Shown in pieces: positions 1,998 to 38,321 of a stretch of DNA of 64,000 bases. The stretch is from the NCBI GenBank assembly GCA_020354645.1, contig CP070652.1, forward strand, positions 3,552,163-3,616,162, given 5' to 3'. The notes below the pieces were generated by a model. The model ran no database searches, was not told the origin of the DNA, and saw only the letters and a program-made list of their open reading frames with translations. Both the position numbers and the translations under genes were made by a program. Each line of letters starts with the position of its first letter. The stretch's first letter is position 1. Origin of the DNA: Deltaproteobacteria bacterium (GTDB lineage Bacteria > Desulfobacterota > Desulfobacteria > Desulfobacterales > G020354645).

Positions 1998-2714
1998 TCA
2001 GTGCCCCAAATATGCGTCGATGACCGCCGGATCATGACGAACCTTTTCTGATATTCCCTCGGCAATGGTCGTTCCGGCCGAAAGGACGGTCAGGTTTTTA
2101 CACAGCTTCATCACCGAGGGAATGTCATGGCTGATCAATAAAAATGTCTTTTCCCGGCTTTTGTTCAACTCAAAGGTGATCTCGATCAGTCGCTCGATCA
2201 ACGCCGGATTGACCCCAGCAAAAGGCTCATCGAGCAGAATGACCTCCGGGTCCGCCATCATCGATCGCATGAACTCCAGCAGTTTTTTTTGCCCGCCGGA
2301 GATTTCCACGGCCAGTTGGTCCCTGAGATGAGTGAGTCCCGCCATTTCCAGAAGCTCTGACGCTTTTTTCTCACCTTCCGTTTTTGACACCCGCCTGGGG
2401 ATCAGGGGAACCATCATGTTCTCCATGAGAGTCATCTCATTGAAAACCCGGGCGACCTGAAAGGTCCGGCCAATTCCCATGGAGGCGATTTGATTGGGTT
2501 TGAGACCGGTAATCTCACGGTTTTTGAAGATGACCGTGCCTTCGTCGGGACTGTAGACGCCATTGATGACGTTGAACATGGTGGTCTTACCGGCTCCGTT
2601 GGGTCCGATAACTCCGTGGATTTTACCCTTCTCCACCCTCAGAGAAACCCCTTGCAGGGCCGGGATCCCGCCAAAATATTTATGGACCTGATCGACTTCT
2701 AAAAATTCCATCAT
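1998..2714 (-). CDS. livG: Branched-chain amino acid ABC transporter ATP-binding protein LivG
   Basis: Second ATPase of the Liv importer, about 238 residues from the ATG at 2712-2714. Walker A is GPNGAGKTTMFNVING, the signature ISGGQKKLLEFMRS and Walker B VILLDEPFAGVNP, followed by the LivG-typical C-terminal tail ending in DAYLGH. An in-frame upstream start at 2762 is rejected because that stretch encodes a hairpin plus T-run lying between livK and livG. The start remains somewhat uncertain: two adjacent ATGs (2714, 2711) share a weak ribosome binding site. Confidence 0.93.
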   Translation of the reverse strand: MMEFLEVDQVHKYFGGIPALQGVSLRVEKGKIHGVIGPNGAGKTTMFNVINGVYSPDEGTVIFKNREITGLKPNQIASMGIGRTFQVARVFNEMTLMENMMVPLIPRRVSKTEGEKKASELLEMAGLTHLRDQLAVEISGGQKKLLEFMRSMMADPEVILLDEPFAGVNPALIERLIEITFELNKSREKTFLLISHDIPSVMKLCKNLTVLSAGTTIAEGISEKVRHDPAVIDAYLGH

Positions 2715-2720
2715 GTATCC

Positions 2721-2757
2721 CAAAAAACCCGCAAGCCCCATTGAAGGAGCTTGCGGA
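2721..2757 (-). terminator. Hairpin with T-run between livK and livG (terminator or attenuator)
   Basis: On the minus strand an 8-bp stem CCGCAAGC/GCTTGCGG with a 12-nt loop (plus coordinates 2729-2756) is followed at once by GTTTTTT. It lies about 50 bp after the livK stop and just before the livG start. It fits a partial terminator that leaves the binding-protein mRNA in excess over the membrane components. The structure is visible; the function is inferred. Confidence 0.7.
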
Positions 2758-2806
2758 TCCATAAAGGGTTACCATCCTCTCTGCCGAGATGATTTAAGAT
2801 AGTGAT

Positions 2807-4144
2807 CTAGACCCACGGTGGCGCTTGGAACGTGCCATCCGCAAGATCAAGCGGCCAGAGTATTTTCGGCTTGCCGCCAAACATCTGGACCAGTGGGAAG
2901 AAAAACCCCTTCATAAAGTCGCCCGTTCGGACATCATTTCTGGAAAGCTGATGCAGGGTTCCTTCTTCAGAGAAGTCTTTCCAGAAGTCGTTATAGGTCG
3001 CAAAGTCATACATCTGCCAGACCCCTTTGTATTTCACTTTCTCCCGGATGTGCTGCACCAGATATTCGAATTTAAGTGTCCCCGCCTCATTGAGGGCTCT
3101 GATGGCCAGGCGAGTGTGGTCATAGGGTTGACCGGATGGCGCGATGCCTGCGTCAATGCCGTACTTGTCCTTAAACCGTTTCATCCATGTTTTCTGTTCC
3201 GGGGAGATAGGATAGGGAGAGTCCATGCAAATCGCAAAGTCTGAAGCCTTCCCGGTATTTTGATACCATTCGCCGGTCCAGGTGAGCCCGTGAGCAAGGA
3301 ATAAGGCCTTGAGTCCCATTGCCCGAACCTGTTTGACAAAGTTGTACATGGGCACACCACCGGTCTGGGTGGTTGCCACCACCGAAACATCAGCGGCTTT
3401 GTACTTGGTGATGATGGGCGTGAATTCGGTCTCATCAATGGCGTTGACATCATAGGGCATCACGTCAAAGCCGGCGGTTCTCAGACTCACCACCAAGGCT
3501 TCGCCCCATCCGCGACCGTAATCGGTATCTTCCACAATGACAGCTGCCTTTCTATTTTTTGGTTTCCACAACCCTTTTTTCATGAAATACACGAGCGGCG
3601 GACCATAGAGCCCGGCGAATACCGGAGGAGATGCCCACCCCTTGAACCACCCCTGGTATTTTTCCGGATGATCGTTGATCTTAAAGTTGATATACTGGGA
3701 TTCGCCCTGATGACCGATGTGAACCATCTTGAGGGGAGATTCAGCGTCCATGCAGGCCATGGCTACGGACGAATGCCAGCCGGTTACCATCATTTTCACC
3801 CCGCGGTTGACAGCGTCTTGCACGGCCTTGACCGATTTTTCGGGGCTCGACTGACTGTCCACCCAAACGGGTTCGATATCCATGGTCTTGCCGTCGACCT
3901 TCACCGGAATCTCCCCTGCTGCCCGGGCATCCTCTAGGGCCATATTAATGCCTCTTTTAAACTGGTCCCCGGTACGGCTGGCAGGACCCGTGAATGGACC
4001 CATAAAACCGATCTTCAGTTTGCTGGCCGCATGCCCCTCTTTAGGAAGACTCATGCTCAGAGCACTTCCAACAACGGCAGCTGCACCGACGGTTTTAACA
4101 AACTCACGGCGAGTCATTCCATTTTGTTTTTTCTCTTCAGTCAT
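2807..4144 (-). CDS. ABC transporter substrate-binding protein, LivK/amide-urea type, Tat-like signal
   Basis: Periplasmic solute-binding protein (Peripla_BP_6 type), 445 residues. The N-terminus carries a twin-arginine-like signal (MTRREFVKTVGAAAVVGSAL) followed by KLKIGFMGPFTGPASRTGDQ, the usual first strand of this fold. It is longer than E. coli LivK (about 370 residues), closer to amide- or urea-binding relatives, so the ligand may not be a branched-chain amino acid. It starts at an ATG preceded by GGAGG and heads the operon livK-livG-livF-livH. It is transcribed divergently from the MttB-like gene at 4553, so a role in importing a substrate of that island is possible (inference). Confidence 0.88.
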   Translation of the reverse strand: MTEEKKQNGMTRREFVKTVGAAAVVGSALSMSLPKEGHAASKLKIGFMGPFTGPASRTGDQFKRGINMALEDARAAGEIPVKVDGKTMDIEPVWVDSQSSPEKSVKAVQDAVNRGVKMMVTGWHSSVAMACMDAESPLKMVHIGHQGESQYINFKINDHPEKYQGWFKGWASPPVFAGLYGPPLVYFMKKGLWKPKNRKAAVIVEDTDYGRGWGEALVVSLRTAGFDVMPYDVNAIDETEFTPIITKYKAADVSVVATTQTGGVPMYNFVKQVRAMGLKALFLAHGLTWTGEWYQNTGKASDFAICMDSPYPISPEQKTWMKRFKDKYGIDAGIAPSGQPYDHTRLAIRALNEAGTLKFEYLVQHIREKVKYKGVWQMYDFATYNDFWKDFSEEGTLHQLSRNDVRTGDFMKGFFFPLVQMFGGKPKILWPLDLADGTFQAPPWV

Positions 4145-4552: not shown

Positions 4553-5995
4553 GTGGATACTTTTCAACACCAAGGCGCAAGGAATAGAATCCTTACCAAG
4601 GCGCAAGTTCATCAAGTTGATGAATATGCGCTTCGATTGATGGAGACGGTGGGCTGTAAAGTGGACTGCCAAGAAGCCTTGGATATCCTTGACCGTGCTG
4701 GATGTGATATCAATAATCCGGCGCGAGTGAAAATACCTCGACGGATCGTGATGGATGCACTTGAGACTGCTCCGGGTGAAATTGAGGTATTCAACCGAGA
4801 CGGTGACCCGGCAATGGTGCTCAAAGAAGATGCGTGTTACTATGGTACCGGTTCTGATTGCCCAACCACGATAGGTTTGTACTCCGGCAAGCGCCGGCAG
4901 TGCACGAAAGAAGATGTGGCGCGGTTGGCACGATTTTGCGATGCGCTTGCCAACATCGACTTTATCATGTCGTTCGGTATTGCCAATGATGCGCCTGAAG
5001 GAAGCAATTTTGTCCACCAGTACGAGGCCATGCTCGTCAACACAAAAAAACCCATTATCGTCACCGGCCACGGAGAAAACGACATGCGGACCATGCTTGA
5101 AATGGCCGCTGCTGCCATCGGGGGCCATAAGGTGCTGCAGAAGAAACCACCCGTGATTCTGTATACCGAACCGTTGTCACCGCTTGTTCACACGGAAATG
5201 GGGGTCAGCAAAGGTTTAATCTGTTGCGAGTACGGGATTCCCTTTATTTACATCGGCAGCCCCATGATGGGGGCGACGGCACCGGCAACTCTGGAAGGGA
5301 CGCTTGTTCAGACGGTAGCAGAGTCATTATCGGGTCTGGTTATCTTTCAGCAAAAACAACCGGGAGCCAAATTTATTTTTGGCGGAGATGCTACCGTCAT
5401 GGACATGAAAACGACCATCTTTAGCTATGGCTCCCCCGAGTTGAACATTTTGAATGCGGCCCTTGCCGACATGGCCCACTTCTATGGACTCCCTTTTTTC
5501 TGCATCGCCGGTTCTTCAGACGCCAAGATTTTGGATGCTCAGGCAGGGCTCGAGTATGCCATGTCAATATACAATGCGACCTTAAACGGCTGCAATATCA
5601 TTCACGACTGCGGCTATCTCGAATCCGGCTTGACATCCTCATTTGAATCGGTGCTCTTTACCGATGAGATTATCAGCATGGTCAAGTATATGCTTCAGCC
5701 CCTGACCATCAATGATGAAACCGTTCCCTTGCAACTCATGGACAGCGTCGGTCCGGGCGGCAACTTCATCGTTGAGGAACATACGGCGGACACCTTTAGA
5801 AAGACTTTCTGGTTTCCCCGTTTTCTGGATAGAAAAAATTTTGAACTGTGGGAGCAGAATGGCTCTCAGGATCTGCCAAAGGTTCTAAACGAAAAAGCAA
5901 AAGAAATTTTTGAGCATCACCAATCGCCGCAGTTCGATGGGAAAAAGGTTGCTGCAATCCATGAGATTGTCGACAATCATCGACCGGATGTTTGA
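4553..5995 (+). CDS. MttB-family (trimethylamine/betaine) methyltransferase, non-pyrrolysine
   Basis: Predicted corrinoid-dependent methyltransferase that takes a methyl group from a quaternary or tertiary amine and passes it to a corrinoid protein (family knowledge). The GTG at 4553 follows AAGGAGG at good spacing, giving 480 residues, the usual MttB-family length. Family landmarks include GIANDAP, ILYTEPLSPLVHTEMG, FIFGGDATVMDMKTTIFSYG, and the C-terminal GPGGNFIVEEHT. The frame has no in-frame stop, so unlike classical trimethylamine MttB it does not need pyrrolysine. It belongs with the MtgB-like homologues known to act on glycine betaine and similar compounds. No corrinoid protein gene is present in the window. 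The substrate is not determined. Confidence 0.9.
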   Translation: MDTFQHQGARNRILTKAQVHQVDEYALRLMETVGCKVDCQEALDILDRAGCDINNPARVKIPRRIVMDALETAPGEIEVFNRDGDPAMVLKEDACYYGTGSDCPTTIGLYSGKRRQCTKEDVARLARFCDALANIDFIMSFGIANDAPEGSNFVHQYEAMLVNTKKPIIVTGHGENDMRTMLEMAAAAIGGHKVLQKKPPVILYTEPLSPLVHTEMGVSKGLICCEYGIPFIYIGSPMMGATAPATLEGTLVQTVAESLSGLVIFQQKQPGAKFIFGGDATVMDMKTTIFSYGSPELNILNAALADMAHFYGLPFFCIAGSSDAKILDAQAGLEYAMSIYNATLNGCNIIHDCGYLESGLTSSFESVLFTDEIISMVKYMLQPLTINDETVPLQLMDSVGPGGNFIVEEHTADTFRKTFWFPRFLDRKNFELWEQNGSQDLPKVLNEKAKEIFEHHQSPQFDGKKVAAIHEIVDNHRPDV

Positions 5996-6043
5996 CAGAT
6001 AAACAGCAAGGCAGTTATGGTCCAATTGAATATTTTAACTGGA

Positions 6044-6226
6044 TGAGGGGTCGGGGAGTTTTTTTAACCCTGTGCCTCCAATCTTTGTTTTTCTAAGCAA
6101 TTTGGCAGCGGGGGATACTTGCCCCCTCCGCATTCCACCTTCGGTGGCTGCGGTCTCCCCCGCTGCCAAATTGCAGAAAAACAAAAGACTTACGAAAACG
6201 GATCAAAAAAACTCCCCGACTCCTCA
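6044..6226. repeat. 183-bp hairpin-forming dispersed element, copy 1
   Basis: The terminal arms GAGGGGTCGGGGAGTTTTTTT and AAAAAAACTCCCCGACTCCTC pair with one mismatch. Inside, TTTGTTTTTCT and AAGCAATTTGGCAGCGGGGGA face TCCCCCGCTGCCAAATTGC and AGAAAAACAAA, with a CCACC-TTC-GGTGG apical hairpin. A second copy of the same length with a few differences lies at 50477-50659. The element ends about 10 bp before the ribosome binding site of the next gene. It encodes no transposase and looks like a non-autonomous, REP/MITE-like unit. Confidence 0.85.
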
Positions 6227-6248
6227 ATTGGATACAAGGAGAAAATGG

Positions 6249-7433
6249 ATGAGAATTAAAGACTTAAAAAGCACCATTCTTTCCGTCCCCTTTGCCAAGC
6301 CGACTTTCTGGCCGTATGGACGATGGGAAGGAATGACGGTGGTTGTTATTGAAATTGAAACCGACTTGGGTGTTGTCGGCCTCGGTGAAAGTGCTTGTAT
6401 TCAAGGGTCGGCCGAGGCTATCAAAAGTTACATCGACAACACCAAACCGTTTCTCGTGGGGCAAGATCCTTTTGATACGGAGCGAATTGGGAAAAGGATA
6501 GAAGGATTGGGCGGCTGGAACTTCGGCCGCCATTTTGCCGGATACGCACTTGCAGGCATTGATATGGCCCTCTGGGATATTATCGGCAAGGCCTGTAATC
6601 AACCGGTTTATAAATTGCTGGGCGGAAAGATTCGCGACAGATCAGAAGGCTTCAAATATATTCATCACGACGATCCGGATATAATGGCTGCTGAAGCCAA
6701 AGAATCCGTAGTTAAAGGATATCGCACGATTTATTGTAAATATACCGGCATTAAACACCTGCGAGAGGCCATTGAAGCCATCCGGGATGCCATCGGGGAG
6801 AAACCCAAACTGTGGGTGGACTTCAACGGGACCCTATCTCCGGGATTTGCCGTTAAGTTTTTAACGGAGATGGAACACTATAGAATCGATATTGCCGAAC
6901 AACCGGTGCTGCCCTCGAATCTGGATGGGATGGCGTATGTACGAAATTCAATCCCCTGCCAAGTCTTGGCCCACGAAAGTTCTTGGACGCTTTATGATAC
7001 ATTAAACGTGATCAAAAAGGGGGCGGCGGACATCATCAGTGTCGAGCCCCGGATGACATGGGGAATTTTGGCCACCAAAAAGGCGGCTGCTGTGGCCGAG
7101 TCGGCGGGGATGCCCGTGATCATGCATTCCTTTGCTGAACTTGGTGTGGCCCAGGCAGCGATTCTGCACATTATTGCTTCTACCCCCAACTTTATAATGG
7201 CCAACCAGTGCATGTATGATTGGTATGACGATGACTACCTCAAAGGCGGCAAGCTGCCGTTTGAAGGGGCATTTTTACGCGTACCGGAGGATTCCGGATT
7301 GGGTGTGGCGCTGGATCGTGATAAGATGATCCAATATCATGAAAATTATAAAGCAGTGGGCGCCTATTCAGTTATGGGACTTGAGCCTGAAGAGTTGCGA
7401 ACCGCTCCGCCACCTCTGTTTCCAAGCTATTGA
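6249..7433 (+). CDS. Enolase-superfamily enzyme, mandelate racemase-like
   Basis: 394 residues with the two-domain enolase-superfamily fold. Probable Mg2+ ligands are D191 (WVDFNG), E217 (IAEQPV) and E243 (AHESS). K164 (IYCKYTG) sits at the second barrel strand. H293 (IMHSF) sits at the seventh, with E266 at the place usually occupied by the Asp of a His-Asp dyad. This suggests proton abstraction alpha to a carboxylate, as in racemases, epimerases or dehydratases. Enolase-superfamily 2-epimerases act on hydroxyproline betaine and proline betaine in other bacteria, which would fit the methyltransferase neighbours (inference). The ATG at 6249 is preceded by AAGGAG. A longer frame from 6072 runs into the repeat element and is rejected. 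Confidence 0.88.
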   Translation: MRIKDLKSTILSVPFAKPTFWPYGRWEGMTVVVIEIETDLGVVGLGESACIQGSAEAIKSYIDNTKPFLVGQDPFDTERIGKRIEGLGGWNFGRHFAGYALAGIDMALWDIIGKACNQPVYKLLGGKIRDRSEGFKYIHHDDPDIMAAEAKESVVKGYRTIYCKYTGIKHLREAIEAIRDAIGEKPKLWVDFNGTLSPGFAVKFLTEMEHYRIDIAEQPVLPSNLDGMAYVRNSIPCQVLAHESSWTLYDTLNVIKKGAADIISVEPRMTWGILATKKAAAVAESAGMPVIMHSFAELGVAQAAILHIIASTPNFIMANQCMYDWYDDDYLKGGKLPFEGAFLRVPEDSGLGVALDRDKMIQYHENYKAVGAYSVMGLEPEELRTAPPPLFPSY

Positions 7434-7643
7434 GCAGTCGCAGAAATTAATGGGATTCCAGACATATTCATCAATCGGTGCAAATGACCTATAGAGCTGA
7501 ATATTTATAACATTTTTATTTAACAACGACTCCAATGTGCGTAGAACGAGCGATGTATGCCTGACACTGAACTTTCATGTGCTCTTCACTTTAATAATCC
7601 GATTTTAACAAAACATAACCCGCGTCTTTACTCCAGGCAAAGC

Positions 7644-8648
7644 ATGTTTAGCGAAAGCAATAAAATCAAAAAATATCTCAGAAAATTACCGCCCGCTCTG
7701 TTGAGTGTTCAAAATACCGATTCAATCGAAATCCTGGACCGGATGCCAGGTTCCTACAATCTGAATTTTCATATCAGGGTAAATCAAAAGGAATTTATTT
7801 TTCGGATCAATATTGAGCAACAAAGTGGCTTTAAAAATCAGATTGAATATGAATTCAGTATCTTGAAATTTCTGGATAATCATTGTATTGCGCCCAAGGC
7901 CTACTATTTTGACAACAGCCGGCGACATTTTGCTTATGGAATACTCATCGAAGAGTATCTCGAAGGCCCTTATTTGACGTTAGAAAAAGAAAATCTTTCG
8001 GAGGTTGTCGAGGTGATGGTAAGGTTGCACGCCTTGAACACGGAAGGAATGCAGTTTGTTATCTGGAAGGATCCGTTGGCAGATACATTTGAGTTGGTCC
8101 GTAAGGATCTGATTTACTACGAATCCAAGGCGACACCCACAAAGAAAGTCATCAACCTGGCAGGAAAATTATTGGCTAAACACGAAACCGCGATAGATAA
8201 TTACCAGCATCTGTATCATGCGGCAAGTTTAAACCATACGGATGTGTGTTGTGATAACTTTATTAAAACAGCTGAGGGACTAAAATTGATTGACTGGGAA
8301 AAACCCCGTGTGGATGACTGTAGCTATGATATTTGCTGTTTCTTATCAGAACCCGTTGAGATGTGGTGTTCCCGAAAGATCCTGAATTCAGAAGCTCGTG
8401 AACACTTCGTGAATAGCTATGCCCGTGCGAGCGGGATAAGCGCGGATCATCTCATGAGAAAAGTCAAAGTCAGAGAACCGTTAATTTCCCTGCACTGGAT
8501 ACTGTGGGGAGCATCTAAGCTATGCGATCTCAGAGATCGCCTTACATCGCCGGACCTTATAAAGGCGCATGAGGAAAAGGCGGCCCGATACGAACGAATT
8601 GCAGATCCCCAGAACATTGAAAAACTGCTGGACACGGTAATGTTTTAG
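7644..8648 (+). CDS. Aminoglycoside/choline-kinase-type phosphotransferase family protein
   Basis: About 334 residues of the APH/choline kinase/homoserine kinase fold. The catalytic loop reads HTDVCCDNFI (the HxDxxxxN pattern) and the metal-binding motif is LIDWEKP. The N-lobe shows YNLNFHIRV and FIFRINIEQQ. The substrate is unknown. In this setting it might phosphorylate an amino alcohol, choline-like compound or amino acid derivative. The start is unsure: 7644 keeps the recognisable domain, an upstream ATG at 7557 adds 29 residues of low-complexity sequence, and neither has a strong ribosome binding site. It is on the same strand as its neighbours but with a 210-bp gap after the racemase-like gene. 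Confidence 0.75.
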   Translation: MFSESNKIKKYLRKLPPALLSVQNTDSIEILDRMPGSYNLNFHIRVNQKEFIFRINIEQQSGFKNQIEYEFSILKFLDNHCIAPKAYYFDNSRRHFAYGILIEEYLEGPYLTLEKENLSEVVEVMVRLHALNTEGMQFVIWKDPLADTFELVRKDLIYYESKATPTKKVINLAGKLLAKHETAIDNYQHLYHAASLNHTDVCCDNFIKTAEGLKLIDWEKPRVDDCSYDICCFLSEPVEMWCSRKILNSEAREHFVNSYARASGISADHLMRKVKVREPLISLHWILWGASKLCDLRDRLTSPDLIKAHEEKAARYERIADPQNIEKLLDTVMF

Positions 8649-8888
8649 TGTAGAGCGATAAAGATTATGCGACGCCAATAACCAGGCGCTGTGTCCCGGG
8701 AATAATTTTAATAAACTTTTTGGGCGTTTTGAAAGCTTTCTGCTCGCCCCGGCGACTATTTTTGGGGATCCTACTGAAAGTGGGACTCGAATAACGCTTG
8801 TAAAAACCTTTCAAACCGTCTGTTGAATTTTGTAAGTTATCCATGGGACATGGCGCCAGATTCTGGAGAAGGTAGAAAGGAGAAAGAA

Positions 8889-10016
8889 ATGGCAAGATCG
8901 ACTATTATGATGATCGGAATCGGTGACCTGGGTGGGCATGTGCTTGAAATGCTGGTTCGAGCGCCAGGGTCTCGGCGCATTATTACTGCCGACACAAACG
9001 AAGATTGGGCCTACCGCAAGACAAATATTGCGGCTTTTGGGGCTGCTCAGTTGGGCTACTATCCGGAGTTGGAGTTTGTAAAAGTCGATCTTTACAATGT
9101 TGATCAAACCGCTGAGATTATCTCTCAATATAAACCGGAGGTAATATATAGTGCCGTGTCGCTTCAGTCCTGGTGGGTCATCAATACCTTACCCAAAGAG
9201 GTTTTTGAGAAGTTGGACATGGCTCGTTTTGGTCCCTGGCTGCCCATGCACCTGACGTTGGTTTATAAGCTTATGCAGGCGGTTAAACAAACAGGGCTTG
9301 ATGTCAAAGTAATCAATTCGGCCTTTCCGGATGCGACACACCCCGTTCTTGATAAGGTGGGTTTGGCACCTGCCATTGGAATCGGTAACGTGGCCAATCC
9401 GGTTCCTGCGATTCGAAGTTCGATTGCATACCGTCTGGCAAAACCGATGAAGGAAATAACAATTTTCTTTTTTGCCCAGCATTATGTGAGTCATTATTTG
9501 CCAAGATTCGGCACGGCAGGCGGGGCGCCGTATTTCTTGAAAGCTATCGTAGACGGTGAAGACATCACCGGGGAAGTAAACGTGGAAGAAGTGTTTGCAG
9601 ACATTCCGAATCGCTTCCGCCGTGCCGGCGGCCGTGACGGACAAATCCTAACGGCTTCTTCGGCTACGGGCACTGTTTTGGCTGTGGCAGATGATACCGG
9701 TGAGTTTATGCACGCTCCCGGGCCTTCGGGTTTACCCGGAGGGTATCCTGTGCGGGTTGACCGAAACGGAGGAAAAGTCATTCTCCCCAAAGGATTGGCA
9801 CTTGATGCGGCCATTCGTATTAATGAAGAAGGGCAGCGGTATGATGGAATTGATCGCATCGATCAGGATGGAACCGTCCACTATACTGAAAAGTCGGTTG
9901 CCATTATGAAAGAGATGCTGGATTATGATTGCAAACTGATGAAGCTGGAAGAGACAGAGGCGCAATCTGAAGAACTGGGGCGCAAATTCAAAAAATTTAC
10001 CGAAAAGTACCGTTAA
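8889..10016 (+). CDS. Rossmann-fold oxidoreductase, saccharopine dehydrogenase-like
   Basis: 375 residues. The N-terminus MARSTIMMIGIGDLGGHVLE is a classic dinucleotide-binding motif (GxGxxG). It is followed by an acidic second strand (ITADTNED) typical of NAD use. The middle contains a long catalytic domain with NSAFPDATHPVL and a C-terminal segment ending in a charged helix. Its overall look is that of saccharopine dehydrogenase or related NAD(P)-binding proteins, but the specific reaction cannot be named. The ATG at 8889 has a strong AAAGGAG site. It sits between a phosphotransferase and the QueG-like protein in the methylamine island. Confidence 0.7.
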   Translation: MARSTIMMIGIGDLGGHVLEMLVRAPGSRRIITADTNEDWAYRKTNIAAFGAAQLGYYPELEFVKVDLYNVDQTAEIISQYKPEVIYSAVSLQSWWVINTLPKEVFEKLDMARFGPWLPMHLTLVYKLMQAVKQTGLDVKVINSAFPDATHPVLDKVGLAPAIGIGNVANPVPAIRSSIAYRLAKPMKEITIFFFAQHYVSHYLPRFGTAGGAPYFLKAIVDGEDITGEVNVEEVFADIPNRFRRAGGRDGQILTASSATGTVLAVADDTGEFMHAPGPSGLPGGYPVRVDRNGGKVILPKGLALDAAIRINEEGQRYDGIDRIDQDGTVHYTEKSVAIMKEMLDYDCKLMKLEETEAQSEELGRKFKKFTEKYR

Positions 10017-10087
10017 TAGATCAGAGGGCAAAACAATTGTCACAATTTCTGAAAAAATCAGGCTTTCAATTTTGATAGAGGTTTTTA

Positions 10088-10870
10088 ATGGACAATGCCG
10101 ACATTGAAAAAATGATCAAGGATTTTATCTTTTCTTACCCAAAGTTGCATAGAGTTGAGACGCGCTGGCGTGAACCCATTGTCGGTTTTGTATCTGCCGA
10201 AGATCCCATGTTTGCTCAGTTTAAATCCATCATCCGAGCCACTCATGCCGCCCCCTCGGAATTACTGCCGGAAGCCAACAGTGTGGTGGCCTACTTTATT
10301 CCTTTTGCAAAAAACCTTCACAAAGAAAACTTTAAAATGAAACACTATGCCGCTCGAAGCTGGGCAGTTGCCTATGTCGAAACAAACCGACTTATTTCTA
10401 GAATCAATGAGCATCTTAAAAGCGAGCTGGAATCCCAGGGATACCGGATGGCGCTGATTCCGCCCACCCACAATTTCGATGAACAAAGCCTCATGAGCGA
10501 CTGGTCTCACCGGCATGTGGCCTATGCAGCCGGTATCGGTCGCTTTGGCAGCCACAATTTAATTATCACTGAAAAAGGCTGCTCCGGTCGCGTTGGAAGT
10601 TTCGTAACGGATTTGATGTTGGAGCCTTCCGCACGCTCTGAAAATGAACGCTGTCTCCATAAGGCCGGTTTTGACTGCCTCAAATGCGTTACACGATGTG
10701 AGTACGAGGCGCTGTATGCCGATCGATTCGATCGCCATGCGTGCTATCGTCAGCTGCTTATAAATGACAACTATTACGCGGATCTTGAACTTACCGATGT
10801 GTGCGGCAAATGCTCGGCGATGGTTCCCTGCAGCGTCATAAATCCCGTCAAAGCAAAAGGGGAAATCTGA
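10088..10870 (+). CDS. QueG-like 4Fe-4S protein (epoxyqueuosine reductase-related)
   Basis: 260 residues. The central part YAAGIGRFGSHNLIITEKGC matches the core of epoxyqueuosine reductase and related corrinoid-binding reductases. Two cysteine groups follow: C-x7-C-x2-C-x3-C (in CLHKAGFDCLKCVTRCEYEA) and C-x2-C-x5-C (CGKCSAMVPC), consistent with two Fe-S clusters. It is shorter than QueG (about 350-380 residues) and lacks the HEAT-like C-terminus. Lying beside two MttB homologues, it could be a reductase or activator for a corrinoid protein rather than a tRNA enzyme. That role is inference. Confidence 0.7.
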   Translation: MDNADIEKMIKDFIFSYPKLHRVETRWREPIVGFVSAEDPMFAQFKSIIRATHAAPSELLPEANSVVAYFIPFAKNLHKENFKMKHYAARSWAVAYVETNRLISRINEHLKSELESQGYRMALIPPTHNFDEQSLMSDWSHRHVAYAAGIGRFGSHNLIITEKGCSGRVGSFVTDLMLEPSARSENERCLHKAGFDCLKCVTRCEYEALYADRFDRHACYRQLLINDNYYADLELTDVCGKCSAMVPCSVINPVKAKGEI

Positions 10871-11176
10871 AAAGGGATAAATGCTTATTGAAGAATTTGT
10901 CATGTCAATTAAATGTAAGTTTGAGCGTTACTGTCAGTGGTTTTATTCCGCACAATATACCAACGGGATGTTGCCCAAATATTTTTGAGCGGTCATTAAA
11001 ACGTTTTTGAATTTATGAGGCTCCCCGCCCTTAGGGGGGGGCTTCCCGGAAAGGAAACTATCTATTTCAGATAGCTTCCTTGAACCCCGCCCGTTATGCG
11101 GGAAGCTTCAATGAACGGCGTTACTGCTGAAACATGAATTCGGCACCAGGGATAGGGTTGAAAGGAGGCTGTTCAA
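10871..11176. other. Intergenic region with nested inverted repeat upstream of second mttB-like gene
   Basis: No gene is recognised. The stretch contains a GC-rich nested palindrome (11041-11106) after a run of GGGGGGGG. The ribosome binding site AAAGGAGG of the next gene lies at its right end. Confidence 0.5.
11041..11106. repeat. Nested hairpin, 66 bp
   Basis: The outer arms GCTTCCCG (11041-11048) and CGGGAAGC (11099-11106) pair exactly. Inside, AAGGAAACTATCT (11051-11063) pairs with AGATAGCTTCCTT (11069-11081) with a single A-C mismatch. It has no downstream T-run, so it is more likely a mobile palindrome or leader structure than a terminator. Confidence 0.6.
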
Positions 11177-12607
11177 ATGAACCATCTTGACTTGAACTTT
11201 AAACCCAAGGTGAAGGTGATCGATGAGCGCCAGATCGAACAAATTCACATGGCTAGCCTGGAGGTGCTCGAAAGAACAGGTGTCCGGTTTCACCACCCCA
11301 AGGCCTTAGAGGTGCTGCACGGTGCCGGTGCGCGGGTGGACGGTGACCGGGTCCGTATTCCGGCCTGGCTGGTCGAAGATTCAATCCGTCAAGCCCCCAA
11401 GCGGATCGTCCTGGGCAATCGTGATGGCACGCGTTCGGTTGTTCTTGAGGGAGACAAATCCTGGTTTGGACCCAGCTTGGATTGCATCGACTACCTTGAT
11501 CCGGTTACCGAAGAGCGGCGTCCTTTCACCGGAGACGATTGCCGGGTGACTGCAACGATTGCTGATGTCTCGCCGAATTTTACCTGGGTGATGACCATCG
11601 GGATGGCTGCCGATGCACCGGCAGATATCGCCGATCGCGTGATCGCCCGGCAAGTTTTGACATACTGTGAAAAGCCTTTTGTGTTTTGTTGTAAAGATGT
11701 CAACAGCGCACGGGATATTTATGAGATGGCCCTTCTCATCGGTGGGGGAGAGGAGAATTTTAAACAGACCCCTACGCTGGTTCACTATTCAGAGCCAATT
11801 TCACCATTGTCGTATTTCGGACCGGCGGTTGAAAAGATTATCTTTTGTGCCGAAACGGGGATTCCGGTAATTAATTTTCCGGCTCCCCAGGCAGGAGGCA
11901 CCTCTCCGGCGACATTTGCGGGTACGATTGTCCAGGGAAGCGCAGAATCGCTCAGTGGACTGGTGCTTGCCCAACTGATCCGGCCGGGAGCTCCTTTTAT
12001 CTATGGCGCTTTTACAACTATCATGGACATGAAGACGACAATATTCTCATACGGCGCACCGGAAATGAGCCTGATGGTGGCTGCCGTATCCCAAATGGCC
12101 CAGTATTACAAGCTGCCCTTCTTCGGTACTGCCGGTTGCACCGATGCAAAGTTTCCGGATCCTCAGGCCGCCGCTGAGGTGGCATTTTCTTGCTTGAGCT
12201 CAGCCCTTGTCGGCGCCAATCTTATTCATGATGCCGGCAGCTGGATCGACCATGGATCTCTCGTTTCACCTGCGTTCATGGTGCTCGTCAACGAGGTGCT
12301 CGAGATGGTCAAGCAATACATGCGCGGTATTCCCGTAAATGAAGAAACCCTGGCGCTTGAATTGATTGATCGCGTTGGGCCCGGCGGCCACTATCTGGAC
12401 GAGGATCACACCATGAAGCATTTCCGTGATGTGTGGTATTCAAAATTATTTGATCGCACGATTTATGACGTGTGGCAGCAACAGGGGGCTAAAAGGTTCG
12501 AGGAGCGTCTCCGGGAAAAGACCCTGGAAGCCATGGACCACAAACCGGCTGCGCTGTCCCCTGAAATCATCAAAGAGCTGGACAATATGGCGAAGGATTG
12601 GGAATAG
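11177..12607 (+). CDS. Second MttB-family methyltransferase, non-pyrrolysine
   Basis: 476 residues, a paralogue of the protein at 4553. It shares GMAADAP, LVHYSEPISPLSYFG, a near-identical TTIMDMKTTIFSYGAPE block and GPGGHYLDEDHT. ATG with GGAGG 8 nt upstream. It has no in-frame UAG, so it is of the MtgB-like type. The two paralogues in one island suggest either successive removal of two methyl groups or two related substrates. It is convergent with the oxidase pair downstream. The corrinoid partner and the methylcorrinoid:THF methyltransferase must be encoded elsewhere. Confidence 0.9.
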   Translation: MNHLDLNFKPKVKVIDERQIEQIHMASLEVLERTGVRFHHPKALEVLHGAGARVDGDRVRIPAWLVEDSIRQAPKRIVLGNRDGTRSVVLEGDKSWFGPSLDCIDYLDPVTEERRPFTGDDCRVTATIADVSPNFTWVMTIGMAADAPADIADRVIARQVLTYCEKPFVFCCKDVNSARDIYEMALLIGGGEENFKQTPTLVHYSEPISPLSYFGPAVEKIIFCAETGIPVINFPAPQAGGTSPATFAGTIVQGSAESLSGLVLAQLIRPGAPFIYGAFTTIMDMKTTIFSYGAPEMSLMVAAVSQMAQYYKLPFFGTAGCTDAKFPDPQAAAEVAFSCLSSALVGANLIHDAGSWIDHGSLVSPAFMVLVNEVLEMVKQYMRGIPVNEETLALELIDRVGPGGHYLDEDHTMKHFRDVWYSKLFDRTIYDVWQQQGAKRFEERLREKTLEAMDHKPAALSPEIIKELDNMAKDWE

Positions 12608-12667
12608 ACTGCCTGTCGAGACGGTCTTAGAAGCTAGTATTGGGAACCGTTTTAGGGTTGGATAGGT

Positions 12668-13822
12668 CTATTTGAGGGCTTCCATTACGCAGCTCAGATC
12701 CCTATAAAGCGAAAATTTGTCAATGACCATCTTGTCCTGCTTGGTGCAGGTATCGGTGACCATTCGCGCAACGACCTCGCCCATTCCCGGACCCAACATG
12801 AAACCCTGCCCGCACATACCGGCCACATGCAGCAAACCTTTAACATCCCGGTTCCAACCGACTAGTGGATAGCCATCGCTTGTCATGGGGTACAACCCTC
12901 TCCATACTCGCCGCACGCGAAGGTTTTTAAGGCGGGGTAAAATACGGGCCATTCTGGCGCAGACCTGAGGGAGGAAGACAGAGGTTTCGCGGTAGTCATT
13001 GCCGATGATTGGGGGGTGAGGTGTGATACAGAATATTACTTGTCCATGCTTGTTTTGATAGAAATAATAGTTCTTGGAACCCGGTCCCGGTCGAAGATCC
13101 ACCACCATGGTCGAGCAAAACCGCTGCACCGGTTCAGTTATTGCAGCTTCATGGGATTCCGGGGTCACTGCAATACTGCAACCGATCGAGCGGGAAAGTT
13201 CCCCAGAGCCGGCACCGGCTGCATCGATCACCACAGGTGCCGAGTAAGTATCGACAGGCGTCATTACACCGGATACTGCTCCACCTGTTTGGATGATTTT
13301 TGTAACCTCTGTCTTGAATTTGAACTCAACGCCGTTTTTTTTAGCCTGCCGGTAGAACGCATTGATGGCGAGGAGGGGAGATGCGGACCCGTCATCCGGA
13401 GAAAAGGTGCCCCCGATCAGGCCCTCTGGATTTATTCCCTGAACCACTTCTTGTATCTTTTTAGGACTTACAAAGTCGATATTTAGTCCATATTTTTTCT
13501 GCATTGGTAAAAAAGACTTGAGCAGCTTTTCTTCCGTTTGACGATAAACCGGAAATGTATACCCACCTTTTAACCACTCAATATCATCCCCGAACTTTTC
13601 CTCCCAAGTAGCGAAGATTTCAAGGGATCTGAGACAGACGATTATCTTGGCCGAATCAGAATGGGTTGCCCGGATACCCCCAATGGCGTGCTTATTCTCA
13701 CCCTGGCCGGGAGAAGGTCTTTTGTCTACAACTAGGATTTTTAGCTTTTTTTGGCCGAGTGCCCAGGCTGTTGGAACTCCGATGGAACCGGCCCCTGCGA
13801 TGATGACATCATAATTACGCAT
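12668..13822 (-). CDS. FAD-dependent amine/amino-acid dehydrogenase, beta subunit (sarcosine oxidase/opine oxidase-like)
   Basis: 384-residue DAO-family flavoprotein. The N-terminal FAD motif is YDVIIAGAGSIGVPTAWALG, and the C-terminal flavin motif is MTSDGYPLVGWNRDVKGLLHVAGMCGQGFMLGPGMGE. Such proteins oxidise secondary or N-methyl amino acids such as sarcosine, proline or opines at the CH-N bond. The ATG at 13822 has GGAGGTGAT upstream and overlaps the stop of the alpha gene by 8 bp, so the two are translationally coupled. A start 5 codons further up is possible but poorer. It probably acts on the secondary amine left after demethylation by the MttB-like enzymes (inference). Confidence 0.87.
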   Translation of the reverse strand: MRNYDVIIAGAGSIGVPTAWALGQKKLKILVVDKRPSPGQGENKHAIGGIRATHSDSAKIIVCLRSLEIFATWEEKFGDDIEWLKGGYTFPVYRQTEEKLLKSFLPMQKKYGLNIDFVSPKKIQEVVQGINPEGLIGGTFSPDDGSASPLLAINAFYRQAKKNGVEFKFKTEVTKIIQTGGAVSGVMTPVDTYSAPVVIDAAGAGSGELSRSIGCSIAVTPESHEAAITEPVQRFCSTMVVDLRPGPGSKNYYFYQNKHGQVIFCITPHPPIIGNDYRETSVFLPQVCARMARILPRLKNLRVRRVWRGLYPMTSDGYPLVGWNRDVKGLLHVAGMCGQGFMLGPGMGEVVARMVTDTCTKQDKMVIDKFSLYRDLSCVMEALK

Positions 13823-15902
13823 TGATATCACCTCCATCGATGCCGGCTAGGTATCCGATAGGAACCTCAACAAAAAGAGGCCGATCGATCCTGTCTGTCA
13901 CATCCCCGAGATCAATTCCCTCCTCTTGAAATATCCGCCATATCATCGGCCGACAGGTTTTTGAGCCGCAAGCACCCATACCGGCCCTATTCAATGCCTT
14001 TAGCTGGTTCATGTCGCGGATGCCGTCACGGATGGCTTTGCGGATCTCACCCGCATTCACCCTCTCGCAACGGCATACGATTGCTTCGTTGGGAAGAGGT
14101 TCTTTTTCATATATGGTGGAGGGTTCAATCTGTTTCTCTTGGTACCAGATGCCGGCAGCCCGCTTGGCTAATTTTTTTTCCATCTTAACCTGAACCAAAA
14201 TTGTTCCCGGGTATTTCTTTCTGGATCTTATTTTTTCAACCATAAAACGGCCTAGTATGGCCCCATCTTTATCGGTAATTGCCACACGTTGGCCTTCTGC
14301 AACCTTTTCACGCCGAACCTCATAGGGTAAGGTCACGGTAGGAAACTCTTTATCCTTTCTATAATCTACAAGTGTAATGGCAAGCCCTGGGCAGATAGCA
14401 ACGCAATTTAGGCATCCGGTGCATTCTTTTTGATCGTCCTGATAGGGGAGACCAGTGATCGTATCATCTTCGGTATGGATGGCCCCGATGGGGCAGGCCG
14501 AAGTGCAGGGATTGCATGGTACTTCCTGGTAGCAATGAAAAACTGGGAACACACCATCCTCAGCATACGGTTTCGTTATGTCTCGTGAAGTACCGGGTTT
14601 GGATTTCAAAATTGTGGCCTTCTCATTCCACTCGGCAGGAATTTCGCCTATGGCCATTCCAAGCGCCCTAGCAATCTTGAAGCTCTCAATTTTTCCTGTG
14701 AACATAGCAGCAGAAGCCTCAGCGATTTCCTGAGCATCACCGGCTGCGAATACATCCATTCCCCACTCTTTTGCTTTCAGATAAAATTCGTTTACTTCAG
14801 CGAGGCCTACCGCGATTAAGACCGTATCCACCGGGTAGGATTTTTCAGTTCCCGGTATGGGTTTCCAATCTTTGTCCAGTTTGGCAATAGTGGCTGATTT
14901 CACCTTCTCCGTTCCGTGAGCAGCCAAAATGGTATGGCTTGTGTATATAGGGACTCCCAGTCGTATGAGTTTGTCAGCATGAACCTTATACCCGCTGATC
15001 TCTGGCAGGGCTTCAATCAGGGCAGCTACCTCAATACCTGCTTGAATGGCATGGTAGCCACTAATAAGCCCGACGTTACCCCCCCCAACGATAATTACCC
15101 GTTCACAAGATTTAACCAGATCTCGGTTTACAAGGGTCTGGAAAGCACCTGCACCGTATACCCCAGGCAGGGTATTACCGGGGAAAGAAAGCATCTTTTC
15201 CCTTGCTCCTGTTGCAACCAAAAGTTTGCGGGGTCGAATCAGTCTATAACTGTTTTCTTTTACAACACCCACTATGCCATCCGAAAACACGCCCACTGCT
15301 GTGCTGTTAAGCCAGATATCAATCGATTCGAGTTTCCGCAATTCCTCTTCAAGGATGTTTGCAATCTCAAATCCGCGAGTGCCTGCATAAGAATCCTCTA
15401 TCGAGCCGAAAAATTTGTGAGTCTGAAGAACCAGTTTTCCTCCCAACCGGTCTTTATCATCTACCAGGATTGTTTTAATTCCCAGTTTGCCGAGTTCGAT
15501 AGCCGCGGACAGGCCTGCAGGCCCTCCACCTAAAATCATGACATCGATATCTTTAGTAGGAATCGTTGAAATCGGAACGGGTTTATCGGCGTGCGGCAAG
15601 CTAGGAAGTCCTTCAACGCTTTGAACATTCATTCCATCCCGAAGGGGTGTCATACAAGATTTGACGGGGAGTCCGTGGGCTGTAACCAGACACTGGGAGC
15701 ACTGCCCATTGGCGCAGAATATGCCCTGGGGGCTGTTGTCCTTAGGATGGTGACCGAAAATTTGGATGCCATTGGCGATCAAAGCAGCAGAAATCATTTC
15801 GCCTTCATAGCCAAACAGCGATTTGCCATTCCACTTAAAAGTCACCTTTTTTTTCTTTGGTACTTCGAGGATTGGATGTTTGGTAATTCGGTGTCCAATC
15901 AT
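13815..15902 (-). CDS. Iron-sulfur flavoprotein alpha subunit (sarcosine oxidase alpha/opine oxidase OoxA/HcnB-like)
   Basis: 695 residues with a composite architecture. An N-terminal 2Fe-2S ferredoxin-like domain (CANGQCSQC plus SCMTP, residues about 60-85) is followed by a pyridine-nucleotide-disulfide oxidoreductase fold (MILGGGPAGLSAAIELG and VGGGNVGLISGYHA). Next come two 4Fe-4S motifs (CNPCTSACP and CTGCLNCVAICP), and last a BFD-like 2Fe-2S domain (CRCERVNAGE then CGSKTCRP). It passes electrons from the beta flavoprotein onward. The added ferredoxin motifs point to ferredoxin or membrane acceptors rather than O2, as expected in an anaerobe. A palindromic operator lies about 52 bp upstream of the start. 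Confidence 0.88.
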   Translation of the reverse strand: MIGHRITKHPILEVPKKKKVTFKWNGKSLFGYEGEMISAALIANGIQIFGHHPKDNSPQGIFCANGQCSQCLVTAHGLPVKSCMTPLRDGMNVQSVEGLPSLPHADKPVPISTIPTKDIDVMILGGGPAGLSAAIELGKLGIKTILVDDKDRLGGKLVLQTHKFFGSIEDSYAGTRGFEIANILEEELRKLESIDIWLNSTAVGVFSDGIVGVVKENSYRLIRPRKLLVATGAREKMLSFPGNTLPGVYGAGAFQTLVNRDLVKSCERVIIVGGGNVGLISGYHAIQAGIEVAALIEALPEISGYKVHADKLIRLGVPIYTSHTILAAHGTEKVKSATIAKLDKDWKPIPGTEKSYPVDTVLIAVGLAEVNEFYLKAKEWGMDVFAAGDAQEIAEASAAMFTGKIESFKIARALGMAIGEIPAEWNEKATILKSKPGTSRDITKPYAEDGVFPVFHCYQEVPCNPCTSACPIGAIHTEDDTITGLPYQDDQKECTGCLNCVAICPGLAITLVDYRKDKEFPTVTLPYEVRREKVAEGQRVAITDKDGAILGRFMVEKIRSRKKYPGTILVQVKMEKKLAKRAAGIWYQEKQIEPSTIYEKEPLPNEAIVCRCERVNAGEIRKAIRDGIRDMNQLKALNRAGMGACGSKTCRPMIWRIFQEEGIDLGDVTDRIDRPLFVEVPIGYLAGIDGGDINA

Positions 15903-15953
15903 GTAGATTCGTCGTTCAATTATGATGTATTGAAGTGTAAACGTTATATGTTC

Positions 15954-15970
15954 AAATGGTTAAACCATTT
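15954..15970. promoter_or_regulatory. Palindromic operator upstream of the oxidase operon, probable GntR/FadR-family site
   Basis: AAATGGTTAAACCATTT is a perfect palindrome around a 3-bp TAA centre and fits the TGGT-N3-ACCA consensus of FadR-type regulators. On the minus strand a TTGACA box (15995-15990) is followed after 17 nt by TTAAAT, which overlaps the operator edge. Binding would block the promoter of the alpha gene. Confidence 0.75.
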
Positions 15971-16088
15971 AAACAGACATTTATCATATTGTCAATTTAA
16001 ATCTTATCGGCCTAAAATTCTATTCAAGCCTCTCAGCGCAGTCTTCCATCAGGAACCAACCAGCTGAACCATATAAGATCTTATGGTG

Positions 16089-16414
16089 GCTAATACCTCA
16101 ATTGTGCATAAACAAAATGAAGAGTGAATTATAACCATTTAGTATCACGAGATATCCGAAATATTTAAACACCTCACTGTAAAACAAAGATAGCAGAATG
16201 ATAGTTGTCTTATTCATTTCTTCATTTTGTTTACCCTTCGGGAAAACCGATGATACCCCATAGCCTTCGGCTTGACTCCTGCGGTGTCTTCGTTGCCAAG
16301 GGTTCGCAGTAGTTTACTACGACTTGACTTCGGCTGAGCTCAGTCGAAACCCACCCCTGGACGCCTTGGATCTGGGGCATCCTCGACTTTTGCACAATTA
16401 AGGTAATAGTTAGC
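16089..16414. repeat. Nested inverted-repeat block
   Basis: The outer arms GCTAATACCTCAATTGTGCA (from about 16089) and TGCACAATTAAGGT followed by AATAGTTAGC (to about 16414) pair imperfectly. Inside, AAACAAAATGAAGA (near 16112) pairs exactly with TCTTCATTTTGTTT (near 16219). Further in, CGATGATACCCC faces GGGGCATCCTCG. The palindrome-like TTCGGCTGAGCTCAGTCGAA (16329-16348) lies inside. This suggests one or more non-autonomous elements inserted between the two operators. Confidence 0.5.
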
Positions 16415-16459
16415 GGTTCTTAAGGTCAAACTTTATCTTGACATTTTATGGATATTAAT

Positions 16460-16476
16460 TAATGGTTAAACCATTA
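16460..16476. promoter_or_regulatory. Palindromic operator upstream of the GntR gene
   Basis: TAATGGTTAAACCATTA is a perfect 17-bp palindrome with the same 15-bp core as the site at 15954-15970. A TTGACA box at 16438-16443 lies 16 nt before it, so the operator covers the expected -10 position. This points to autoregulation by the product of the next gene. Confidence 0.75.
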
Positions 16477-16633
16477 TATAAATAATATACTTGTATTACA
16501 GGTTGAGAAATCTACCAGCGCGTATTGCGGTATTGAAAAGCAGTCCAAAATGCAATGCGTGGATGTTGGATTTCAAACTGAATGCCGGACAGATGACAAT
16601 GGCTAAAACCATTCAAATCAGCAGGTGAATTTT

Positions 16634-17368
16634 ATGTTTCGCACAGCCTCTCAAAACAGAGTTTTTCAGGATGTTGTTAACCAGATTCAAGAGGCCATCC
16701 TAGAGGGAAAGCTCGAAACCGGAGACATCCTCCCTTCTGAAAGGGAGCTCAAGGAGATGTTTAATATCAGCCGGGGTACCTTGCGAGAAGCGCTGCGTGT
16801 TCTCGAGCAAAAAGGTCTGATTGAAATCAAGCTGGGTGTTGGCGGTGGATCCGTAGTCAAGGCTTTGAATACTGAGAAGATTAGCGAGAGTTTGGCTCTT
16901 TTGATTCGGACTCAGAAAGTTTCGTTAAACCATCTCGCTGAATTCCGGGAAGGAATCGAGGGGATTATAACGGCTCAGGCGGCTGAAAGGGCCAAAAAAA
17001 CTGATATTCAGGTGTTGAAAGAACTCTTGGAAGAAGCGCGCGCATGCATTGAGATGGGGAGCTCTCACAGGGACACCTTTATTGATATTGACAAACAGAT
17101 TCACCTGACCCTTGCAAAAATAACCGGTAATCCCATTTATCAATTCCTTATGTATTCGGTTCATGAGAATATCCATCGCTATTACGATAGGTATCTATCC
17201 ATGGAGGAACGTGAATTGAACGAAAATTACCAAGACCTTTGCGATATTGTAAACGCAGTGGAACAAGGACATGTGGACGAGGCCTGCTTATTGGCGCAAA
17301 ACCACGTTCACCGCTTCAACCGTTACATGAAAAATAGAGCACGGCAACAGCAAAAAGGGACCAGTTAA
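16634..17368 (+). CDS. GntR-family transcriptional regulator, FadR/FCD subfamily
   Basis: 244 residues. The N-terminal winged helix reads ILPSERELKEMFNISRGTLR followed by EALRVLEQKGLIEI. The C-terminal all-helical FCD domain carries candidate metal/ligand residues in DIDKQIHLTLAKITGN, HENIHR and HVHRFNRYM. Such regulators usually release DNA when they bind a carboxylate metabolite. The ATG at 16634 (AGGTG upstream) is preferred to a GTG 9 bp earlier. Matching palindromes at its own promoter and at the oxidase promoter make it the likely local repressor of N-methyl amino acid oxidation. Confidence 0.88.
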   Translation: MFRTASQNRVFQDVVNQIQEAILEGKLETGDILPSERELKEMFNISRGTLREALRVLEQKGLIEIKLGVGGGSVVKALNTEKISESLALLIRTQKVSLNHLAEFREGIEGIITAQAAERAKKTDIQVLKELLEEARACIEMGSSHRDTFIDIDKQIHLTLAKITGNPIYQFLMYSVHENIHRYYDRYLSMEERELNENYQDLCDIVNAVEQGHVDEACLLAQNHVHRFNRYMKNRARQQQKGTS

Positions 17369-19821: not shown

Positions 19822-19954
19822 AAACGTCCAATTCCTGAGGTGTTTTTGGGCGAAATTTTGTGATAAGGCAATTTAAAAAAGAAGAAACTGAAGCACCGAG
19901 ATCCAGATAGATAAAGGGATATTTCCAGTCGGTGAATCCCAGGAGGTTTTGCAG

Positions 19955-36226: not shown

Positions 36227-36251
36227 ATTAACCTTTTAAAACCAGTCCGTA

Positions 36252-38273: not shown

Positions 38274-38321
38274 CTCAGCTACCTCCGATCACTACAAAGA
38301 CCACCCGTCTCATGTCCTTTT

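Follow-up and report, generated by a model that had tools for sequence, protein, structure and literature searches.

What compound does a sulfate reducer degrade when it keeps two MttB-superfamily methyltransferases beside a racemase-like enzyme and oxidoreductases of the amino-acid type? This question is raised by a gene cluster in a stretch of 64,000 nucleotides (the window hereafter; G000:C1:3552163-3616162, GenBank contig CP070652.1) of the 5.57-Mb single-scaffold genome of a Desulfobacterales relative, kin to marine sulfate reducers. A first-pass annotation, made from the sequence letters, had drawn a pathway here in which a betaine is epimerised, demethylated in a corrinoid-dependent manner and oxidised as an amine. 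Our analysis favours, with somewhat more confidence than doubt, a catabolic corrinoid pathway for a chiral, amino-acid-like quaternary ammonium compound. The betaines of proline or hydroxyproline are the leading candidate class of substrate, with a probability of roughly one third; failing these, the substrate would be a carnitine-like compound or the betaine of some other alpha-amino acid. The corrinoid pathway and the chiral substrate of the earlier scheme are thereby retained, whereas an HpbD-type epimerase, a single regulated unit and the completeness of the gene list are not supported.

Gene content of the locus

4553..5995, plus strand: MttB1, non-pyrrolysine (non-Pyl) MttB-superfamily methyltransferase with Ser at the Pyl position (PF06253, 302 bits; alignment; tree)
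6249..7433, plus strand: enolase-superfamily (MR/MLE) racemase or dehydratase (PF02746/PF13378; closest solved structure 2PGW)
7557..8648, plus strand: choline-kinase/APH-family small-molecule kinase (PF01633, PF01636; first ATG at 7557, a start near 7644 also possible)
8889..10016, plus strand: 375-residue dehydrogenase of NAD(P) type with the lactate/malate dehydrogenase (LDH/MDH) fold (structure model and Foldseek; no Pfam or NCBIfam match)
10088..10870, plus strand: small Fe-S protein, distantly QueG-like (TIGR00276, 34.8 bits; two Cys-rich motifs)
11177..12607, plus strand: MttB2, non-Pyl MttB-superfamily methyltransferase with Cys at the Pyl position (PF06253, 349 bits)
12668..13837, minus strand: DAO-family flavoprotein, beta subunit of a proline/sarcosine/opine dehydrogenase-type complex (PF01266; 1Y56 chain B)
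13815..15902, minus strand: soxA-like partner subunit, Fer2_4, Pyr_redox_2, 4Fe-4S and BFD (Pfam; 2GAG, 1Y56)

The plus-strand string thus runs MttB1, enolase-superfamily enzyme, kinase, dehydrogenase, small Fe-S protein, MttB2. On the minus strand livF, livG and livK are divergent from MttB1, and dao and its partner are convergent with MttB2; gntR lies on the plus strand. An open reading frame check and Pfam/NCBIfam profile searches found every gene named in the first-pass annotation present and intact, and its two non-pyrrolysine MttB homologues, its enolase-superfamily protein and its sarcosine/opine oxidase-like pair are borne out by the matches above. Its list was incomplete, in that the kinase and the dehydrogenase were omitted and the locus extends onto another contig. 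Good ribosome-binding sites precede the starts at 4553 (a GTG after AAGGAGG), 6249, 8889 and 11177, while scans for sigma-70 promoters and terminators gave no excess over shuffled sequences.

The methyltransferases and their neighbours

Both methyltransferases match the profile of the non-Pyl MttB superfamily (PF06253/COG5598), over residues 11-486 in MttB1 and 9-470 in MttB2, and neither gene has an in-frame TAG; they are 35% identical to each other and have the YxEP and IHD motifs in common. MttB genes are not rare in this genome, since it holds 22 PF06253 matches, 2 of the 22 with an in-frame TAG. In a tree that left out MtpB, MtcB, MtyB and MthB, the two proteins fall in a clade separate from both MtgB and Pyl-MttB (split support 0.999). 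Although they belong to the same superfamily as MtgB (2QNE, 9YCE), with 28-30% identity, they lack most of its proposed ligand contacts. Residues Y94, N199, R309 and H345 of MtgB have been put forward as glycine-betaine binders (PMC6855144, whose numbers are one below the 9YCE numbering used here). The first three are replaced in MttB1/MttB2, Y94 by Leu/Ser, N199 by Glu and R309 by Phe, and the alignment at H345 is ambiguous by one position. By these residues and the separate clade neither protein is an MtgB and, because the proposed binding residues are replaced, glycine betaine is an unlikely substrate.

As of 2025 a substrate had been assigned to six superfamily members (PMC12155760). In E. 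limosum, MtpB (proline betaine), MtcB (carnitine) and MtyB (gamma-butyrobetaine) are non-Pyl MttB proteins served by a common corrinoid protein and activase, and an MFS carrier gene adjoins those for MtyB and MtcB (PMC8604678). The window locus resembles these systems in its non-Pyl MttB demethylases and in an MFS carrier, but the set of racemase, kinase and amine oxidases has not been described with them.

It is this company that points to the substrate class. MttB2 has matches (43-83% identity, E<=1e-120) in 57 of the 390 genomes of the class, window genome included, and no match in plasmid records. Within five genes of MttB2 we find a DAO, OCD, enolase-superfamily, Asp/Glu-racemase, proline-racemase or PutA gene at 27 of 53 loci, compared with 1 of 20 control regions drawn arbitrarily from this genome set (Fisher p 0.0003); as the neighbour families were chosen from the very loci tested and controls were few, the association lends support but is no proof. 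None of the families tested singly (DAO, OCD, enolase-superfamily) was significant alone. Across the 53 loci DAO occurs near MttB2 in 10, OCD in 9 (8 adjacent), enolase-superfamily in 7 (6 adjacent), Asp/Glu-racemase-like genes in 7 and aldehyde ferredoxin oxidoreductase (AFOR) in 9. Racemases and amino-acid oxidoreductases in such proximity suggest substrates that are chiral and resemble amino acids; achiral choline or glycine betaine would hardly call for such enzymes.

Loci inspected individually carry L-numbers, L035 being that of HyVt-363. An operon common to L132 and L138 comprises an MtgB-like gene (46% to MtgB), AP_endonuc_2, an enolase-superfamily gene, MttB2, ferredoxin, AFOR and DAO, and gives the impression of a separate unit for betaine degradation. 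The same operon, extended by a hydantoinase_A/DUF1638 protein, is seen in Desulfobacterales at L132:1381-12757 and L138:4376-16129 and also in L144, L146 and L147.

The enolase-superfamily enzyme and proline betaine

The alphaproteobacterial aerobic pathway for hydroxyproline betaine combines HpbD with Rieske-type demethylases, and HpbD-type betaine epimerases, of the MLE group, carry one Lys on strand 2 and another on strand 6. The window locus is like that pathway in combining an enolase-superfamily enzyme with betaine demethylation and the oxidation of an amino acid, and unlike it in its corrinoid MttBs and the absence of the strand-6 Lys. The window protein has the MR_MLE N and C domains, with the metal ligands D and E aligned and the third probably a Glu one position on. 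It carries Lys on strand 2 and His on strand 7, while an alignment to the MLE-type epimerase 3JVA places Glu (SVEPRM) at the strand-6 Lys. An HpbD-type epimerisation is accordingly not supported; the Lys plus Glu/His set could still racemise or dehydrate. The closest solved structure, 2PGW, was deposited as a muconate cycloisomerase and is 32% identical in the alignment.

At E<=1e-60 no close orthologue of this enzyme was found in the 390 class genomes besides the window genome; the best plasmid matches reach about 33% identity, and one that was inspected adjoins sugar-acid genes. Because MttB1 and the enolase-superfamily gene are absent between livK and the kinase in L035, L090 and L170, the pair seems to have been inserted into a core of livK and kinase. 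The enolase-superfamily proteins beside MttB2 in L095, L100, L132 and L138 were considered as proof of the same reaction and rejected, being only 28-29% identical with differing catalytic residues.

The replaced Lys also counts against a proline or hydroxyproline betaine pathway exactly as earlier drawn, namely HpbD-like epimerisation, MttB demethylation and oxidation of N-methylproline. That scheme draws support from HyVt-363, in which a proline racemase/4-hydroxyproline epimerase family gene, two OCD enzymes and PutA surround kinase-dehydrogenase-MttB2, and from PutA in L170 (58% identical to that of HyVt-363, near the livK-kinase cluster) and in L166. It agrees further with the oxidase flavoprotein, whose best solved match is chain B of the L-proline dehydrogenase 1Y56 (162 bits), and with an OCD-family enzyme described below, for which pyrroline-2-carboxylate reductase is the third-best distinct match. 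It leaves the kinase and the LDH-fold enzyme unexplained, however, and no Pro_dh gene was found in the window genome, so that if proline were the product its oxidation must fall to a DAO or to the dao/soxA-like pair. We consider the pathway in this exact form doubtful.

Oxidation of the demethylated amine, as in the first-pass scheme, is supported. The partner of the flavoprotein matches sarcosine oxidase alpha (2GAG chain A) first and 1Y56 chain A second, and a DAO beta subunit with a Fer2_4/Pyr_redox/BFD partner identifies the pair as a dye-linked proline/sarcosine/opine dehydrogenase complex. The combination is that of Pyrococcus PDH1 (1Y56), LhpBEF and the opine oxidases, in which a DAO subunit accompanies a Pyr_redox/Fer2_4/BFD partner; unlike in these, the window partner is fused in one 695-residue chain including a 4Fe-4S region.

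The kinase and a possible choline-type route

The best solved match of the kinase is choline kinase 4R77. Its HxD...N and IDWE motifs, as NHTDVxxDNF and LIDWEKP, are kept in five homologues and place it in the choline-kinase/APH family; its structure model is poor (pLDDT 54), and plasmid records gave no match. The most conserved pairing among relatives is that of livK (75-86% identity) divergent from the kinase (56-66%), seen in L029, L035, L090 and L170. The gene strings are kinase-dehydrogenase-MttB2 in L035, kinase-MttB2 in L090 and kinase-dehydrogenase-OCD-octopine dehydrogenase-DAO in L029. Around remote kinase homologues (27-29% identity; L174-L177), a small negative control, no OCD, MttB or livK was found nearby.

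Since the kinase had been missed, the choline pathway of E. limosum, a serious alternative model, was not considered earlier. That pathway comprises MthB, MthK, EamA, MthC and MthA, with the choline kinase, the MttB member and the EamA carrier in one cluster (PMC12155760). By analogy, choline or another hydroxylated quaternary amine would be phosphorylated first and then demethylated by one MttB. The likeness is considerable: an MttB-superfamily protein, a choline-kinase-like kinase with complete catalytic motifs and an EamA carrier (on the joined contig, see below) occur together, kinase and MttB2 stand in one gene string in three genomes, and co-localisation of MthK and MthB has been reported in delta-proteobacteria (PMC12155760). 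The window locus differs in having two MttBs, in lacking MthA and MthC in the cluster and in adding a Liv ABC transporter and enolase-superfamily, LDH-fold, OCD and FAD amine-oxidising enzymes. Choline needs no racemases, OCD or amino-acid oxidases, most MttB2 orthologues are without a kinase neighbour, and three loci (L170, L171, L173) have the kinase beside OCD with no MttB nearby. We regard this route as unlikely.

A variant, which we hold to be distinctly unlikely, would be a second kinase-dependent MttB pathway, in which a chiral hydroxylated betaine would receive a phosphate before MttB2 (and MttB1) took off its methyl groups, and the LDH-fold dehydrogenase would help to break down the carbon skeleton anaerobically.

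An LDH-fold dehydrogenase family

Pfam and NCBIfam searches of the 375-residue dehydrogenase gave no family match, and its profile has a weak but collinear match to malate and lactate dehydrogenases. With the structure model (pLDDT 92.5), all 50 listed Foldseek matches are malate, lactate or 2-hydroxyisocaproate dehydrogenases (LDH/MDH/HicDH), with a best E of 3e-12 and TM scores of 0.5-0.6. His198 is invariant across 15 homologues and stands where LDH has its catalytic His, a correspondence taken from motif order. The protein thus shares the fold and the conserved His of the superfamily, but is only 11-18% identical to solved members; by its predicted structure it is a remote LDH/MDH-superfamily member.

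Homologues (L031, L035-L051, L053-L056 and L058-L059) are spread over sulfate reducers, plasmids of rhizobia, cyanobacteria and Actinophytocola. The rhizobial genes adjoin those for alanine-racemase-like, DMT transporter, HAD phosphatase, C45 peptidase and three-subunit FAD oxidoreductase proteins. In HyVt-363 the MttB1 orthologue (70%) is accompanied by an octopine-dehydrogenase-family gene, an IMPase-like phosphatase and AFOR. Phosphorylating or dephosphorylating enzymes and opine- or proline-type oxidoreductases thus recur around the LDH-fold family.

These associations bring in another explanation, that at heart the locus encodes an opine-like or hydroxy-amino-acid pathway of kinase, LDH-fold, octopine-dehydrogenase/OCD and opine-oxidase enzymes, in which the MttBs only demethylate methylated variants of the substrate. 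The LDH-fold gene does recur with octopine-dehydrogenase enzymes (L029, L031, L039) and with opine-oxidase-like complexes (L053, L056 and the window), and glycerate kinase and enolase lie beside it in L031. Yet MttB1 and MttB2 are interleaved with these genes in the window, as is MttB2 in L035, which is hard to reconcile with a mere accessory role, and we judge this explanation improbable.

The small Fe-S protein, called QueG-like in the first-pass annotation, is present but only remotely related to QueG, as its TIGR00276 score of 34.8 bits compares with a cut-off of 200 and Pfam gave no match; it is possibly an electron carrier or a corrinoid activator. In L046 roughly 2 kb separate an LDH-fold homologue (383-1459) from a homologue (3671-4519; 43%) of this protein and, given this proximity, the two may work together.

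The locus across a scaffold gap

The transporter genes lie at the left end of the window:

3..818, minus strand: livH permease, residues 1-272 of 295, gap-truncated (tblastn with L035 livH, 85.7% identity)
1285..1995, minus strand: livF ATPase (PF00005; 85% identity to L035 livF)
1998..2762, minus strand: livG ATPase (86% identity to L035 livG)
2807..4144, minus strand: livK periplasmic binding protein (PF13458; at four further loci, orthologues of 75-86% identity lie divergently to the gene of the kinase)

The livK-type transporter is directly divergent from MttB1, as the first-pass annotation had it, and is cut by an assembly gap. A 100-N gap ends at the base before window base 1, where livH is truncated after ...GGWQNVIVF. 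A second 100-N gap, near 267.6 kb and 3.3 Mb away in the assembly, is followed by IAVLIFKPAGLFARAGERP and a stop, which is the missing livH end, and then by livM (83% identity to HyVt-363 livM); about 4 livH residues are absent between the two contig ends. Behind livM come MFS (73% to HyVt-363 MFS), EamA, a DAO flavoprotein and an OCD-family enzyme (60% to HyVt-363 OCD), and HyVt-363 keeps the order livK-G-F-H-M, MFS, OCD. Because livH runs on and the gene order matches HyVt-363, the two contigs belong together and are misplaced in the scaffold. From these sequences the joined order reads OCD-DAO-EamA-MFS, convergent with livMHFGK, which is divergent from MttB1-enolase-superfamily-kinase-dehydrogenase-FeS-MttB2, in turn convergent with dao-soxA, followed by gntR. 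An alternative in which a large inversion had split the liv operon was rejected, both break points being 100-N gaps.

The assembly is a pseudo-scaffold of contigs linked by 100-N gaps, with a wrong order at least here, and the sequence left of the window, three corrinoid-protein genes at G000:C1:3535700-3540098 among it, is perhaps not truly adjacent. The gap positions concerned are window base 1, L106:12064-12163 and L178:9501-9600.

Regulation and the extent of the pathway

16625..17368, plus strand: GntR/FCD regulator (PF00392, PF07729)
15955..15969, no strand: predicted GntR operator AATGGTTAAACCATT, a perfect palindrome, upstream of the soxA-like gene
16461..16475, no strand: second predicted GntR operator, upstream of gntR

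The regulator, already annotated as GntR, is of FCD type, having GntR and FCD domains with TGGTNNNACCA-type predicted operators nearby. The sequence AATGGTTNAACCATT, which contains TGGTNNNACCA, the FadR-type operator form, has only two perfect copies in the genome, at 15955 and 16461, both between gntR and the soxA-like gene. GntR probably controls itself and the oxidase pair; its control of the MttB operon is unsupported, as is a reading of the whole locus as one regulated unit.

Several observations, then, weigh against the pathway for a chiral quaternary ammonium compound. The genome scan found no perfect operator near livK or MttB1 and, with the predicted operators stopping short of the MttB operon, dao/soxA/gntR may form a unit by themselves. 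The neighbours of MttB2 are mixed, for which reason its substrate may vary between clusters. Since L170, L171 and L173 pair the kinase with OCD and no nearby MttB, demethylation may be an add-on to a kinase pathway. The OCD enzyme on the joined contig is about equally near alanine dehydrogenase and pyrroline-2-carboxylate reductase; none of the 17 corrinoid-protein matches in the genome lies inside the window locus; and the lack of a detected Pro_dh counts here too.

The operators also bear on the explanation that two unrelated units abut, a livK-MttB1...MttB2 operon and a separately regulated gntR with dao/soxA, which is compatible with the other explanations. Their opposite strands agree with it as well, whereas DAO/SoxA-like complexes lie beside the kinase in L171 and near the LDH-fold gene in L053 and L056. 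We see it as a real possibility, if somewhat short of an even one.

Downstream of these genes the window holds further features. An IS200-like Y1 transposase with a DnaA-like C-terminal helix-turn-helix (17595-18575) lies directly downstream of gntR. A 344-residue protein of isochorismatase/nicotinamidase-like appearance without a Pfam match (18787-19821) is upstream of nicotinate phosphoribosyltransferase (19949-21415), and NuoM-, NuoL- and MrpD/NuoN-like proton-pump/antiporter membrane subunits stand in a row at 34718-39815, beside metK (33324-34493).

A proposed pathway and its implications

The gene content, the dehydrogenase fold, the conserved associations, the continuity across the gap and the operators come from computation, and from them we infer every reaction and the substrate of the pathway favoured above. 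The Liv ABC system (livKGFH in the window, livM on the misplaced contig) and the MFS and EamA carriers would import the substrate or export a product. MttB1 and MttB2 would methylate a corrinoid protein whose gene lies elsewhere, the methyl groups going on to tetrahydrofolate and the carbon monoxide dehydrogenase/acetyl-CoA synthase (CODH/ACS) pathway. Genome-wide there are one CdhC (acetyl-CoA synthase), four RACo and 17 near-full-length matches of pyl_corrinoid type, two of them above the cut-off; together with the two MttBs these support corrinoid-dependent demethylation of a quaternary amine, and they make the methyl flow to the carbonyl branch that the first-pass annotation had envisaged feasible. 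A corrinoid protein serving several MttBs has a precedent in E. limosum (PMC8604678). The kinase would phosphorylate a hydroxyl of the substrate or an intermediate, and the enolase-superfamily enzyme would alter stereochemistry or eliminate water. The demethylated secondary amine could then be oxidised by the FAD enzymes (the joined-contig DAO and the window DAO/SoxA-like pair), and the OCD-family enzyme, together with the LDH-fold dehydrogenase, would deal with the resulting imine or keto acid.

It may be the kinase and the LDH-fold dehydrogenase that reveal what the substrate is. Were the kinase-dependent reading with a chiral betaine true, the pathway would differ from the choline route and involve a previously unnamed family of LDH-fold dehydrogenases. 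More generally, most non-Pyl MttBs are without a known substrate, and the racemases and amino-acid oxidoreductases that often accompany MttB2-like proteins point to chiral amino-acid-like betaines, a short substrate list. The locus would also give a first role to an unclassified LDH-fold family of sulfate reducers, rhizobia and cyanobacteria.

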